From the NCBI GenBank assembly GCA_030431255.1, contig JAUIJL010000036.1, forward strand, positions 1 to 59,538: a DNA stretch of 59,538 nt, read 5' to 3'. The notes under the pieces were generated by a model. The model ran no database searches. It was given only the letters and a program-made list of their open reading frames with translations, and was not told the origin of the DNA. Source of the DNA: Thermoanaerobaculia bacterium. GTDB taxonomy: Bacteria; Acidobacteriota; Thermoanaerobaculia; Multivoradales; J023. Positions 37,661 through 40,950 of this stretch are shown here, piece after piece; positions within the stretch are counted from its first letter, which is position 1, and each line of letters begins with the position of its first letter. The position numbers and the translations under genes were made by a program.

Positions 37661-37788
37661 GGCGGACGCATTCGAGGCTTTGCACCAGGACGGCTCCCCC
37701 TGCCACGATTTGGCCACGATTGCGAATCAGAATCGCCTTCTACGCTTCTTAGCCCTGAAAAATCAACGGTTTGTGGAAGGATTCAACA

Positions 37789-38622
37789 ATGCGTCGGCTG
37801 ACTTTGTCCTTGGCCCTGATCTCCGTCACCCTGCTCACCGCCTTCGGCTCCGCCGCCGGGGCCGAGACCCTCGAAGAGCATTTTGCCGACTACGAAGGCT
37901 GTTTCTTGGTCACCGAGCTCGACGGCACACCGCTCCTGCGTTGGGGCGCCTGCTCAGAGCGATATCCCCCTTGTTCCACCTTCAAGATCCCCAACAGCTT
38001 GATCGGCCTGGAGACCGGCGCCGTGGATCTGGAGACCGTGTTGCCGTGGGACGGCGAAAAGAAATACTTGCGCAGCTGGGAGCGAGACCACGATTTGGCT
38101 TCGGCCATCCGCTATTCGGTGGTCTGGTACTACCAAGAGCTGGCGCGGCGAGTGGGCGAGGAGAAGATGCAGGACTACGTGAATCGCTTCAACTACGGCA
38201 ATCGGGACATCAGCGGCGGCCTGACCACGTTCTGGCTCAGCTCGTCGATGAAGATCTCGGCCGACGAGCAGATTCGATTCCTGAGCAAGCTCTACACCGG
38301 CGAGCTGCCGGTGTCGGAAGCCTCGGTAGAAACCGTGAAGAAGATCCTCTTCTTCAAAGGCTCCGACACTTCTGGAGCCTCCACCGGTGAGCCGCCCTGG
38401 TCCTTGAGCGCCAAAACCGGATCGTGTCGGCTCGAAGGCGAGCAAACCCTGGGCTGGTGGGTCGGAAATTGGACCCAAGGCGACCGACAACGTCTCTTCG
38501 CCACGCGAATTCTCGGCAAAGGCGCCGACGGTCCCACCGCCCGCAAGCTGACCCTTCGGATGCTGGCGGATCCCGACGTAGTATCCAAGGTAGGGGCTCA
38601 ACCTCTGGAGCTCGAGCCCTGA
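37789..38622 (+). CDS. Class D (OXA-type) beta-lactamase
   Basis: 277 aa with signal peptide (1-25). All class D motifs are present: S63-T-F-K66 (PPCSTFKIPNSLIGLE), S110-V-V, Y136-G-N (FNYGNRDISGG), Trp149 in FWL, and K209-T-G-S. It should hydrolyse beta-lactams in the periplasm by a carbamylated-lysine mechanism. Flanking genes are chromosomal and no mobile element is adjacent, so it looks intrinsic rather than acquired. GGAAGG precedes the ATG at 37789. It follows the RND and TlpA genes on the same strand. Confidence 0.92.
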   Translation: MRRLTLSLALISVTLLTAFGSAAGAETLEEHFADYEGCFLVTELDGTPLLRWGACSERYPPCSTFKIPNSLIGLETGAVDLETVLPWDGEKKYLRSWERDHDLASAIRYSVVWYYQELARRVGEEKMQDYVNRFNYGNRDISGGLTTFWLSSSMKISADEQIRFLSKLYTGELPVSEASVETVKKILFFKGSDTSGASTGEPPWSLSAKTGSCRLEGEQTLGWWVGNWTQGDRQRLFATRILGKGADGPTARKLTLRMLADPDVVSKVGAQPLELEP

Positions 38623-38638: not shown

Positions 38639-38673
38639 TGAAGGGATGAAACAAGTCATCCCTTCATTTTCTT
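38639..38673 (+). terminator. Hairpin terminator between beta-lactamase and peptide gene
   Basis: An 11-bp perfect stem (38639-38649 with 38656-38666), 6-base loop, then ATTTTCTT on the + strand. It terminates the beta-lactamase transcript and also sits at the end of the leftward peptide/TPR operon. A related, less perfect hairpin follows the other peptide gene (39869-39896). Confidence 0.8.
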
Positions 38674-38675
38674 GG

Positions 38676-38735
38676 TCAACCGGTTGGAACCATACCACCG
38701 GCTATGCCGGAAGAAATGCTAGTGGTTGTCTTCAT
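38676..38735 (-). CDS. 19-residue peptide gene (copy 2)
   Basis: Encodes MKTTTSISSGIAGGMVPTG. GAGAGGAG stands 4 bases before the ATG, a strong ribosome-binding site. It begins 40 bases after the stop of the TPR gene on the same strand and ends just before a perfect hairpin. A second peptide of exactly the same length, with the shared pattern MK..T...SG..GG..PTG, lies upstream of the TPR gene (39907-39966). There is no secretion signal. The repeated length, motif, site and following hairpin support a real gene family; the function is unknown, with a signalling or modified-peptide precursor as possibilities. Confidence 0.6.
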   Translation of the reverse strand: MKTTTSISSGIAGGMVPTG

Positions 38736-38775
38736 TGAGCTCCTCTCAAATTCTGCTGGACAGCGGGTACGATGC

Positions 38776-39846
38776 TCAGGATTGCTTTGCCCTGTGGTGT
38801 GGCTTCAACAAGAGGCGTAGCTCTACCGCTTCGCCATACCGGATCGATTTGCTCTCCAGAGCTGTCCGCAAAGCGTTCTTCGTCAAGGGGCGCAGGCTGT
38901 AGGGCATCTTATTGACCAGCCGTCGAACGGTGAGCAGGACATCGGCGGATTCTGAATGCCTTCCGGCTTGGGCGTAGGCACAAATTAGATCAAGAGCACA
39001 TGCGAGCGCCTGATCCGGGTGCTGTTCTTCCAAGAACCGAACCGCCCGCCGCAGAGGCGCGATCGCCAGTTGGGGCCGCCCATCGCGCATGTTGAGAAGT
39101 GCCTCTGCCCTCGAAAGCATGAGGCGAGGGAGTTGGGCCTTTCGATACCCTGAACCGCCATCGGCGAATTGCTTCCGTAGATCTTCAATATGCCCCTTCA
39201 GTCGCTCGAAGAAAGCAGGTGGGACTTTCAAGCCCGTTTCAAAGCTCAAGGCGTTGCATGTCGTCATCACGGCGCTCAGCATCGAATAGTCCGTGCGCGG
39301 TTCCTCCACTTTGATCAGATCCATGACAGTGATTGCATCGATCAAGGCATCGCTGAGATCACCGAGCAAATACAGAATCCATCCTCGGATCGCCAGAGCA
39401 GGCACTCGGTCCGAGCTGGTTGCCAGAGCGGAATTGATGATTTGCAATCCAGATTCGAGCTCACCCAGGCAAATCAGAGTGCCGGCCATCTTCGTGTAGA
39501 TGTCTCCTCGGCTGGTTTCGCCCAGGCCGGGGATCGAAAGGGCCTCGCGGAAGGTTTGAAGAGCCTGCTCCAGGTCTCCATTGGTGCGCAGCGTGGAAGC
39601 ATAAACGGCAAGAGCGAATGCGTGGTGATCAGGAGTGGCATCCCGAATCCTTTTCACTAACTTCAGAATGCTTTTTCCTGCATGTAGAGCCTCAGCAGGA
39701 TTGTCGGTGTTGAGATTGTCGATTCGTTTAGATATCTGGCGCAGAGCCTCGGCAGACCAGTAGCGTTCCTGATCCACCATTCTGGCAATGTCAGCAGCAT
39801 CGGCCCGGCGAATGCGCTTCTGCTGATGTTCGGTCACCACGCCCAT
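38776..39846 (-). CDS. TPR-repeat protein of unknown function, flanked by peptide genes
   Basis: 356 aa, cytoplasmic, almost entirely alpha-helical. TPR-like units are visible, such as ALAVYASTLRTNGDLEQALQ, TKMAGTLICLGELESGLQII, ALAIRGWILYLLGDLSDALI and CALDLICAYAQAGRHSESAD. There is no helix-turn-helix and no enzyme domain, so it resembles the TPR receptor part of Rap-like proteins rather than a PlcR/Rgg regulator (comparison, not a family assignment). Two 19-residue peptide genes flank it on the same strand. The start at 39846 is weakly supported (no clear AGGAG). Confidence 0.7.
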   Translation of the reverse strand: MGVVTEHQQKRIRRADAADIARMVDQERYWSAEALRQISKRIDNLNTDNPAEALHAGKSILKLVKRIRDATPDHHAFALAVYASTLRTNGDLEQALQTFREALSIPGLGETSRGDIYTKMAGTLICLGELESGLQIINSALATSSDRVPALAIRGWILYLLGDLSDALIDAITVMDLIKVEEPRTDYSMLSAVMTTCNALSFETGLKVPPAFFERLKGHIEDLRKQFADGGSGYRKAQLPRLMLSRAEALLNMRDGRPQLAIAPLRRAVRFLEEQHPDQALACALDLICAYAQAGRHSESADVLLTVRRLVNKMPYSLRPLTKNALRTALESKSIRYGEAVELRLLLKPHHRAKQS

Positions 39847-39868
39847 GTAAGAAGGATAGACGAATTTA

Positions 39869-39931
39869 TGAAGGGATGACCAGAGCCACCCCTTCGTCTT
39901 TTGGAGTCATCCGGTCGGCAAGACCCCACCG
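39869..39931 (-). repeat. Diverged copy of the sequence at 38639-38700
   Basis: 39869-39931 resembles 38639-38700 (both begin TGAAGGGATGA and share CCCTTC and a final CCACCG; roughly 70% by eye). Each covers the end of a peptide gene and the hairpin after it. This copy's hairpin has mismatches. The pair shows that the two peptide genes and their 3' flanks arose by duplication. Confidence 0.6.
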
Positions 39932-39966
39932 TAGGCACCGCTTAGGACATCAGTTTTAACCTTCAT
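39907..39966 (-). CDS. 19-residue peptide gene (copy 1)
   Basis: Encodes MKVKTDVLSGAYGGVLPTG, with AAGGAGAAGGCA directly before the ATG at 39966. A ten-codon basic frame MKLAKLRRRQ (39963-39995), itself preceded by AGGTGA, overlaps this start as ATGA, which could couple translation. The TPR gene begins 60 bases downstream on the same strand. It shares K2, T5, SG at 9-10, GG at 13-14 and PTG at 17-19 with copy 2. No family was recognised. Confidence 0.6.
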   Translation of the reverse strand: MKVKTDVLSGAYGGVLPTG

Positions 39967-40341
39967 TGCCTTCTCCTTAGTTTGGCGAGCTTCATTGCTT
40001 CACCTATTCTGGAAGATAGGCAGATTACTTCAATGTCGTCTAGTCCGTTGCGGAATCGCACCGAAAGGTGTTCAGAGGAAAACCTCATTCTTCCGCTTTT
40101 GGTGGAAATCTTTGCGTCAGAGCTGTTCCCTGATAAGCGATTTCTCGATCTAGGTGAGTCGTTGGATTGGAATCCACTCGCAAGGAAGACTCCCAGTCAT
40201 TTTGACGGCACGTTCTGCCGACAACGGGCGTTTCTTGGCCACATGTCGTTGACTTTCGGTAGCTTCCCGGCACCATCAACACATCGGGAGCCTGTGTTGA
40301 GCCGTTTCCGCAGGCTCCCACCTTTTTCAAAGCCGGGACCC
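39967..40341. other. Divergent region between the peptide/TPR operon and the + strand gene
   Basis: About 375 bases. It contains the short basic leader frame at 39963-39995 (- strand). A + strand frame is open from 39982 into the next gene, but its composition is not protein-like. Promoters for both directions are expected here; none was clearly seen. Confidence 0.4.
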
Positions 40342-40950
40342 ATGACCGCTGACTTCACACTTTCCGCCATCGTCGACGATCTCGACCCGCAGCTTGAGCT
40401 CAAGACGGCCGACCTTGAGAAGCTCTTGGAAGCGCTGTGTGCGGCAGAGCATCCCGGGTCGTTCAGGGTGCTCTTTTGGCTCTTGCTGCGGACGTTTCAA
40501 AAAGATCCCGATCTCCATGCCGCTATCGTTGAATCTTGGATACCCAGTGAAGCAAGTCTGGCGCGGCTGTTGGAAGATGCGGGCAAGGGCGGAACACGAA
40601 TAGTTCTGTCGTTGGAAGGCGTGAGAGGAGAGCTGAAGCGGATCTGGCAGCTCTGTGACGATATCGGTCTCGCCAACCTAGTGGCGTCGAATGAGCCGCT
40701 GGCAGTCGTCGCCCTGGCGCCGATGGCGGCCTTGCACACGGAGCGCCAGCTCGACGAGCTGATAGCAGCCGTTTCCCGGGGTCTCCAGTGGAAGGATCCC
40801 GGAGAAATTCTGAGCCCCGACGGAGATCAGGAGTTTGACGTCGAAGCTTTAGTTGCCCTGGCGCAAACCCGCTTGGTGAGAACCGGTGGAGGGGAAGCGC
40901 TCAATATCGTGGTGTTAAGGCTGATGAATGTTGCCGAATCGGTGAATTAG
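40342..40950 (+). CDS. Helical protein of unknown function
   Basis: 202 aa from the ATG at 40342, where protein-like sequence begins (MTADFTLSAIVDDLDPQLEL); the frame is open upstream to 39982 but looks unconserved, and the ribosome-binding site is weak. Acidic, mostly alpha-helical, no membrane segment. Segments such as LEKLLEALCAAEHPG and GEALNIVVLRLMNVAESVN suggest a helical bundle. No family was recognised. An intrinsic terminator follows. Confidence 0.55.
   Translation: MTADFTLSAIVDDLDPQLELKTADLEKLLEALCAAEHPGSFRVLFWLLLRTFQKDPDLHAAIVESWIPSEASLARLLEDAGKGGTRIVLSLEGVRGELKRIWQLCDDIGLANLVASNEPLAVVALAPMAALHTERQLDELIAAVSRGLQWKDPGEILSPDGDQEFDVEALVALAQTRLVRTGGGEALNIVVLRLMNVAESVN

Follow-up and report, generated by a model that had tools for sequence, protein, structure and literature searches.

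Nineteen-residue peptide genes beside TPR protein genes in some large-genome Acidobacteriota: a system that looks like peptide-and-receptor signaling

Signaling by small peptides and their dedicated receptors is known best from Gram-positive bacteria. In the RRNPP (RRNPPA) systems, as characterized in the accessible sections of PMC10075063, a propeptide of 10–100 amino acids, secreted by SEC (SHP and PrgQ being exempt), is encoded next to a tetratricopeptide repeat (TPR) receptor of 250–500 amino acids, with the two neighbors placed at −60 to 400 bp; according to the same sections, the Rgg-SHP precursors, encoded beside a TPR regulator, are not predicted to use SEC. Cytoplasmic peptide receptors with the TPR fold are described as a feature of the Firmicutes both there and in the accessible part of PMC9765709, a Firmicutes survey. 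A literature search for RRNPP or peptide-TPR systems, outside which fell preprints and most subscription journals, found no report from the Acidobacteriota. Here we analyzed a stretch of 59,538 nucleotides (the window), representing contig C31 of the 10.19 Mb genome G000 of a Thermoanaerobaculia bacterium, in which two 19-codon peptide genes flank a TPR gene. Many such peptide genes, nearly all beside TPR genes, were found in some large-genome Acidobacteriota, which looks like peptide-and-receptor signaling.

The initial annotation of the locus described a peptide, a TPR protein and a second peptide on the minus strand, both peptides with exactly 19 codons; coordinates, strand, lengths and gene order were all reproduced:

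39907..39966, minus strand: peptide 1 gene, 19 codons, MKVKTDVLSGAYGGVLPTG, one of the 30 distinct 19-codon open reading frames (ORFs) of the family
38776..39846, minus strand: TPR gene, 356 amino acids, the proposed peptide receptor (Pfam TPR_12, 37.1 bits, cut-off 30.1)
38676..38735, minus strand: peptide 2 gene, 19 codons, MKTTTSISSGIAGGMVPTG, downstream of the TPR gene, covered by the peptide profile and the pairing survey
39870..39895, minus strand: hairpin 3' of the peptide 1 stop, terminator-like, without a clear U run (−22.9 kcal/mol, z −2.8)
38639..38666, minus strand: hairpin 3' of the peptide 2 stop (−21.8 kcal/mol, z −2.7)

By these coordinates the TPR gene is separated from the peptides by 60 and 40 bp. 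The strong Shine-Dalgarno-like sites reported before both peptides (AAGGAGAAGGCA and GAGAGGAGCTCA) and the hairpin reported after each stop were found again. A ten-codon basic frame overlapping peptide 1 was rejected as a part of the system because of its lack of conservation: at this place the three paralogous loci show a different frame, a frame of six codons or no ATG at all. The window TPR protein contained no recognized output domain, being Rap-like in that respect. In the same genome it has two full paralogues (39% identity), one truncated paralogue (47%) and two others that are more distant, and 19-codon frames of the same pattern (MTVKSQVQSGQMGGLTPIG, MQVKTKIASGIGGGEVPIG and MQVKTSATAGLSGTLVPIG) precede the first three of these. 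Further 19-mers were recovered at TPR loci in genomes of the same family.

Both window frames belong to a gap-free family with the pattern M.V.T.V.[AS]G followed by.GP...P.G at the very C-terminus, and the pattern originally seen in just two peptides proved to be shared by 32 members, confined to three of the 72 genomes of the order (G000, G003 and G006). The whole genomes were scanned with peptide profile A2 (14 peptides) and then with A5 (27 peptides). The A5 scan gave 28 matches at E < 5e-4, each covering at least 17 of the 19 positions, all in these three genomes and none in the remaining 69; 27 of the 28 are rows of A5 itself and thus not independent, and neither are the E values of the window peptides (1.7e-5 and 4.8e-4), since both are rows of that profile. 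L118 (E 0.009), L246 (E 0.006) and two peptides of L249 completed the family. The motif.{8}[AS]G.{6}P.G occurred in 28 of 493 distinct 19-codon ORFs of related loci (window excluded) versus 0 of 496 in reversed sequence, an excess which is ascertained because the motif was derived from these same loci.

The 19-codon frames are conserved as proteins. Residues G10, P17 and G19 were invariant in all 30 distinct ORFs, each being encoded by all four synonymous codons, the length was constant, with a single longer form of 20 residues (L120), and translation starts with ATG in 27 and with GTG in three of them. A codon-substitution check gave 7 synonymous to 2 non-synonymous changes in the closest orthologous pair and no length change in the 30 frames, in line with the initial description of the frames as genes; taken over the full set of 435 pairs, in which many are saturated and not independent, the synonymous proportion (pS) was 0.73 and the non-synonymous (pN) 0.45. 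A ribosome site precedes the frames and a hairpin follows most of them: folding with z < −2 within 70 bases of the stop was observed in 24 of 29 members (the thirtieth ORF, L118, offered too little sequence) versus 3 of 60 random windows.

The expectation that homologous short frames would be found near related TPR genes was borne out. With neighbors called by a match to a profile of 11 family TPR proteins, a TPR open frame was present beside 31 of the 32 peptides, within 195 bases for 30 of them and at 719 bases in L118, while the L117 peptide has no TPR gene on its contig of 4,015 bases. Fifteen peptides were located upstream in tandem (including L076, assigned by hand because its stop-to-stop TPR frame extends back over the peptide), one downstream (window peptide 2), 14 tail-to-tail (13 loci) and one divergently, i.e. 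the peptides co-occur with TPR genes in every orientation. Blind genome scans were also evaluated, counting only those peptides that were matched at E ≤ 0.2 (A2) or ≤ 0.01 (A5) over the full or nearly full length, were not profile rows and had not been seen previously beside a TPR gene: 14 of these 15 adjoin a TPR gene. L249 (E 0.94 in the A2 scan) was excluded from this count, having been chosen partly for its known adjacent TPR gene. Two peptides each are present at this locus and at the window locus; L072 and L059 combine an intact peptide with a broken TPR gene.

Two more loci have a different small frame 5' of a family TPR gene: L007 (G006, C219) a 14-codon variant, MESCSIGPFIIPDG, devoid of the usual N-terminal block, and L056 (G003, C228) a longer ORF with an internal GTHIVPDG and no 19-mer. 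The N-terminal block pattern alone gave 43 matches in seven genomes, compared to 2 for the backward pattern, among them long unrelated ORFs and a second class of micro-ORFs. The latter (L162-L174 in G000, G003 and G006) have 16–27 codons, good ribosome sites, common first ten residues (M[KQ]VKT.V.AG-like) and different tails, such as NGDSGGPMTGG and IVGGSEATPNEYPWQG, some of which we take to resemble trypsin motifs; a comparison of their neighbors found none in common.

Relatives of the TPR protein were detected with profile A1 at E ≤ 1e-8 in 43 of the 72 genomes of the order, and their architectures varied. Four proteins encoded tail-to-tail with 19-mers combine the TPR region with an AraC-type helix-turn-helix (HTH) domain (HTH_18, cut-off 33.6 bits: L113 57.1, L114 38.9, L119 52.8 and L125 47.5 bits). 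An XRE-type HTH was recognized by eye, without Pfam support, in the L112 protein, and a weak XRE-like one in L016 (HTH_3, E 0.049, below the cut-off). Outside the window's own family the relatives mostly start with an H..C..C segment that by inspection is of the zf-HC2 type, the Pfam cut-off being reached in one of five scanned (L030, 22.3 versus 22.2 bits) with the other four below it. An ORF of the extracytoplasmic function (ECF) sigma type directly precedes the TPR gene in 5 of 19 wider-family loci, and Sigma70_r2 was present in the two such ORFs tested (33.4 and 32.6 bits, cut-off 24). Alignment A4 of the window type (30 sequences) matched alignment A6 of the zf-HC2-TPR type (16 sequences) over 351 columns at E 9.4e-55; judged by this profile comparison, homology between the window TPR family and the zf-HC2-TPR-type proteins elsewhere in the order extends over almost their whole length. 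In a phylum sample the zf-HC2-TPR profile matched 4 of 199 genomes (own included) at E ≤ 1e-30, all within the class; no window-type TPR was found in the genome contigs searched, and no relative in viral contigs with the two patterns used. At L182, L183, L190, L192 and L194 an ECF-sigma-type ORF stands right before a gene of the zf-HC2-TPR type, in some of them with a small signal-peptide-like ORF further upstream, and it is possible that these TPR proteins are peptide-controlled anti-sigma factors.

The upstream regions of the relatives pointed to another form of the ligand. A small signal-peptide-like ORF, called by a home-made fixed rule that was set after examples and is not SignalP, was present upstream in 15 of 36 distinct loci; among the same 36, the rule called such an ORF downstream at one locus and on the opposite strand at three (raw counts over 42 loci, six of them repeats: 18, 1 and 3). 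Nine of the 15 distinct precursors contain DP[ND]G, in part repeatedly: that of L031 has AGAGLDPNG in three tandem copies and that of L026 has GPSMDPDG and GPSMDPNG. L008 and L014 represent one orthologous locus in two genomes of the window's family, with TPR proteins 81% identical. Here the slot of the 19-mer is occupied by a precursor, 64 or 70 residues long, which begins like a signal peptide and has the C-terminal end GPVIYPTG or GPYVVPTG. The comparison of order-wide relatives suggests that the older ligand may have been a secreted propeptide.

The AlphaFold2 model of the window TPR protein, built with 30 relatives, is an all-helical superhelix with high scores (predicted local distance difference test, pLDDT, 92.9; predicted template modeling score, pTM, 0.90). 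Its structure matches include Rap with its peptide, Rap-CSF (Z 20.5, 289 residues, root-mean-square deviation, rmsd, 4.5), phage Rap (19.6, 290, 4.8), RapF (19.3, 291, 5.2) and NprR (18.5, 293, 5.6), the best rows of the Rap entries lying at Z 20.5–17.1 and those of NprR at 18.5 and 17.9. The profile of the 30 relatives reached phage Rap105 at E 1.1e-8, with designed and eukaryotic TPR proteins scoring higher. A helices hold nine of the 13 lowest-entropy polar columns and B helices hold none, the 13-column cut and the helix naming being our choice, with a B-helix column coming soon after the cut. In the family majority the conserved polar A-helix columns are R87, S84, R119, R154, R187, N195, W246, E248 and D286.

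Many of the tandem peptide genes also share upstream elements. In G003 and G006 the palindrome ACCGATCGGT or a close variant was found 87–92 bases before the start in 6 of 11 tandem 19-mer genes and in both genes of the signal-peptide type (the L008/L014 precursors, at 92 bases), against a background of 0.04 per 220 bases, and was absent before the tail-to-tail peptide genes of these two genomes; it is likely an operator of some regulator. In G000, four tandem peptide genes share CTAGACG-N(16-17)-CTATCTTCC at 77–79 bases. Judging from the placement of the two elements, therefore, many tandem peptide genes seem to be co-regulated. The remaining features around the window peptides are:

40011..40043, minus strand: promoter-like element CTAGACG-N17-CTATCTTCC, 77 bases 5' of the peptide 1 start, a putative promoter
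39853..39858, minus strand: −10-like TATCCT, 6 bases 5' of the TPR ATG, from which the TPR transcript may be leaderless
40342..40950, plus strand: divergent helical protein of about 200 amino acids (group B), a conserved neighbor with homologues in six loci of the own genome

A stretch similar to TATCCT, TTCGACTAT, directly precedes the TPR start in L002 and L003, and in the own genome a separate, putatively leaderless promoter seems to serve the TPR genes of L001-L003. The neighbors of the peptide loci clustered into TPR proteins and unannotated helical proteins. The group B homologues (window, L071, L072, L073, L079 and L129) are encoded head-to-head with a peptide in five loci and with the TPR gene in L129; similar neighbors occur elsewhere as group A (11 loci) and group C (6 loci). 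Group B has the motif W.DP.E[IV]L, while the group C proteins near other peptide loci have HPAEVLDP[DE]G, and the three groups are weakly related (hhalign probabilities 82, 65 and 3). In Pfam the window group B protein stayed below threshold in all its hits (best TetR_C_11, 20 bits, cut-off 32), and a single representative of group A and one of group C had no match. A search of the PDB with the group B model (pLDDT 77.7) found nothing at E ≤ 0.001. On the other side of the locus, a plus-strand gene at 37771-38622, convergent with peptide 2, encodes a penicillin-binding transpeptidase domain (PF00905, 132.2 bits) and presumably a class D beta-lactamase, judging from its STFK and YGN motifs.

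With moderate confidence, we interpret the observed coding, pairing, architecture and homology to mean that each locus encodes a micropeptide together with the TPR protein sensing it, as an RRNPP-like ligand-receptor pair. Of the readings that account for the pairs in all their arrangements, for the diverse outputs and for the C-terminal motif in common with the signal-peptide-like precursors, this is the simplest. The peptide, either whole or as its C-terminal 8-9 residues.GP...P.G released after M.V.T.V.[AS]G, would bind in the concave TPR groove, lying there extended by its C-terminal part, and the inner (A) helices, which hold the family's best-conserved polar positions, would be the place of contact. 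Binding would then switch the receptor. The output may differ by locus: a fused AraC-type HTH in some proteins; in the wider family zf-HC2-like anti-sigma segments, in part encoded next to ECF sigma genes; and, in the window form, a protein partner as in the Rap proteins, for which the divergent neighbor is a candidate. Cleavage after [AS]G, export and re-import are presumed. The older ligand probably being a secreted propeptide, cell-to-cell signaling with re-import by an oligopeptide transporter appears the most likely setting; the 13 SBP_bac_5 matches in G000 show that import is possible and nothing more. More tentatively, and with slightly less than even confidence, we propose that the Acidobacteriota related to Thermoanaerobaculum, a genus of the class Thermoanaerobaculia, may have a signaling superfamily of their own, with secreted, sometimes multi-copy G..xDP[ND]G propeptides, miniaturized P.G 19-mers and TPR receptors in which the output module is exchangeable (none, AraC HTH, or zf-HC2 with ECF sigma). 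If true, a diderm phylum would use a peptide language resembling that of RRNPP, and a single genome would maintain many private channels in it.

Several observations weigh against the ligand-receptor interpretation. The 32 peptides are not 32 independent cases because several are orthologues of G003 and G006; adjacency in the blind scans was not complete; and only 10 of the 20 loci L051-L070 have a 19-mer, the other 10 lacking it. The window peptides are among the more divergent members, having GG for GP and no D16, and the window TPR protein has K119, Y187, T195 and R246 where most have R, R, N and W. The structure list is topped by human APPBP2 (Z 22.1, 326 residues, rmsd 4.9), in a structure that includes a C-terminal RxxGP degron, and LGN and an APC subunit reach Z 18.4 in it; therefore the fold fits a peptide-binding TPR groove and does not show descent from RRNPP. 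By sequence, the best PDB matches were designed and eukaryotic TPR proteins. On the ligand side, the signal-peptide calls depend on the fixed rule, such evidence inside the window's family amounts to one orthologous locus, and by the same rule a P.G precursor was present in none of seven loci (class relatives outside the order and three own-genome loci).

The strongest alternative is that the 19-mers are purely intracellular micropeptides regulating their TPR partner as antagonists or anti-adaptors, with neither export nor quorum sensing. The initial annotation had found no secretion signal in the two window peptides, and by reading there is indeed no hydrophobic N-terminal stretch in them nor a signal peptide in any of the 30 sequences, which speaks for this alternative and against the ligand-receptor interpretation. 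Purely intracellular action is thus possible, in agreement with the compact genes adjoining the receptor and with the N-terminal block heading also the other micro-ORFs, for which no common neighbor was found. On the other hand, precursors that look as if they had a signal peptide, and whose C-terminal motif is similar, accompany related TPR genes, and at L008/L014 such a precursor replaces the 19-mer behind the same palindrome, so we consider it unlikely, yet deserving serious attention.

The appearance of a leader (M.V.T.V.[AS]G) plus a variable core, and the other micro-ORFs with the same first ten residues and different tails, would also fit precursors of ribosomally synthesized and post-translationally modified peptides or bacteriocins, with the TPR protein as an accessory or immunity factor. 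This is improbable: the core is conserved (P17, G19) and not hypervariable, no common enzyme was recognized in the neighbor-ORF clusters, most of whose members had no domain scan, and the AraC HTH partners point to regulation. Still less probable are cis-acting leader peptides, in which stalling at P.G-stop would control both the hairpin and transcriptional passage into the TPR gene by read-through. In their favor, proline near a stop can stall ribosomes, and 15 peptides are directly upstream of a TPR gene, most with a hairpin after the stop. This attenuation was rejected as the main reading because 14 of 32 peptides are tail-to-tail and peptide 2 follows its TPR gene; one more peptide is divergent and one without a TPR gene. 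The N-terminal half is conserved as well, the length is fixed apart from L120, and the L001-L003 TPR genes seemingly have a promoter of their own.

With a ligand-receptor system of this kind in a diderm phylum that is widespread, peptide communication would reach bacteria from which no such report was found, and the system could show the shrinkage of a signal-peptide precursor to a 19-mer. The 31 peptides with a TPR neighbor in three genomes provide ready pairs for testing. Since gene callers easily overlook genes of only 19 codons, further systems of this type may have gone unnoticed.

The described systems used for comparison were Rap-Phr, NprR-NprX, PlcR-PapR, Rgg-SHP and AimR. The RRNPP-like character proposed initially holds as an analogy, supported by the adjacency, the receptor size, the TPR superhelix and the precursors in relatives, but not as family membership: NCBIfam matches at E ≤ 1 included no Rap, Rgg, AimR or other RRNPP model, and PHROGs at E ≤ 0.1 gave one irrelevant match and no RRNPP model. 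In common with RRNPP, as delimited in the accessible sections of PMC10075063, there is a small peptide gene (19 amino acids) adjoining a TPR protein of 356 amino acids, both within the size ranges given there, at gaps of 60 and 40 bp within −60 to 400 bp. The receptor has TPR repeats, by both the TPR_12 match and the model, Rap and NprR structures are among the best fold matches together with unrelated TPR proteins at Z 18–22, and the ligand is proposed here to be C-terminal. RRNPP propeptides with repeated pheromones reportedly exist (PMC11343458), resembling the multi-copy precursors of the relatives. The differences are the host, belonging to the Acidobacteriota and not to the Bacillota, the common tail-to-tail arrangement, the lack of a hydrophobic N-terminal stretch in the window 19-mers in place of a SEC signal, and the AraC HTH and zf-HC2/ECF-sigma outputs, which were not met in those sections of PMC10075063. 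The 19-mers resemble the Rgg-SHP precursors in lacking a SEC signal beside a TPR protein, and differ from them in a non-hydrophobic N-terminus and another motif. The wider family, with its N-terminal zf-HC2-like segment and the upstream ECF-sigma-type ORF (5 of 19 loci), recalls the pairs of ECF sigma and zf-HC2 anti-sigma factors, from which it is distinguished by the TPR sensor region and, in some loci, by the signal-peptide-like small ORF further upstream. Because of the missing SEC signal, and as the sequence and fold comparisons did not single out RRNPP receptors, the system is not filed as an RRNPP member; as a working analogy, it would be one that works like RRNPP.

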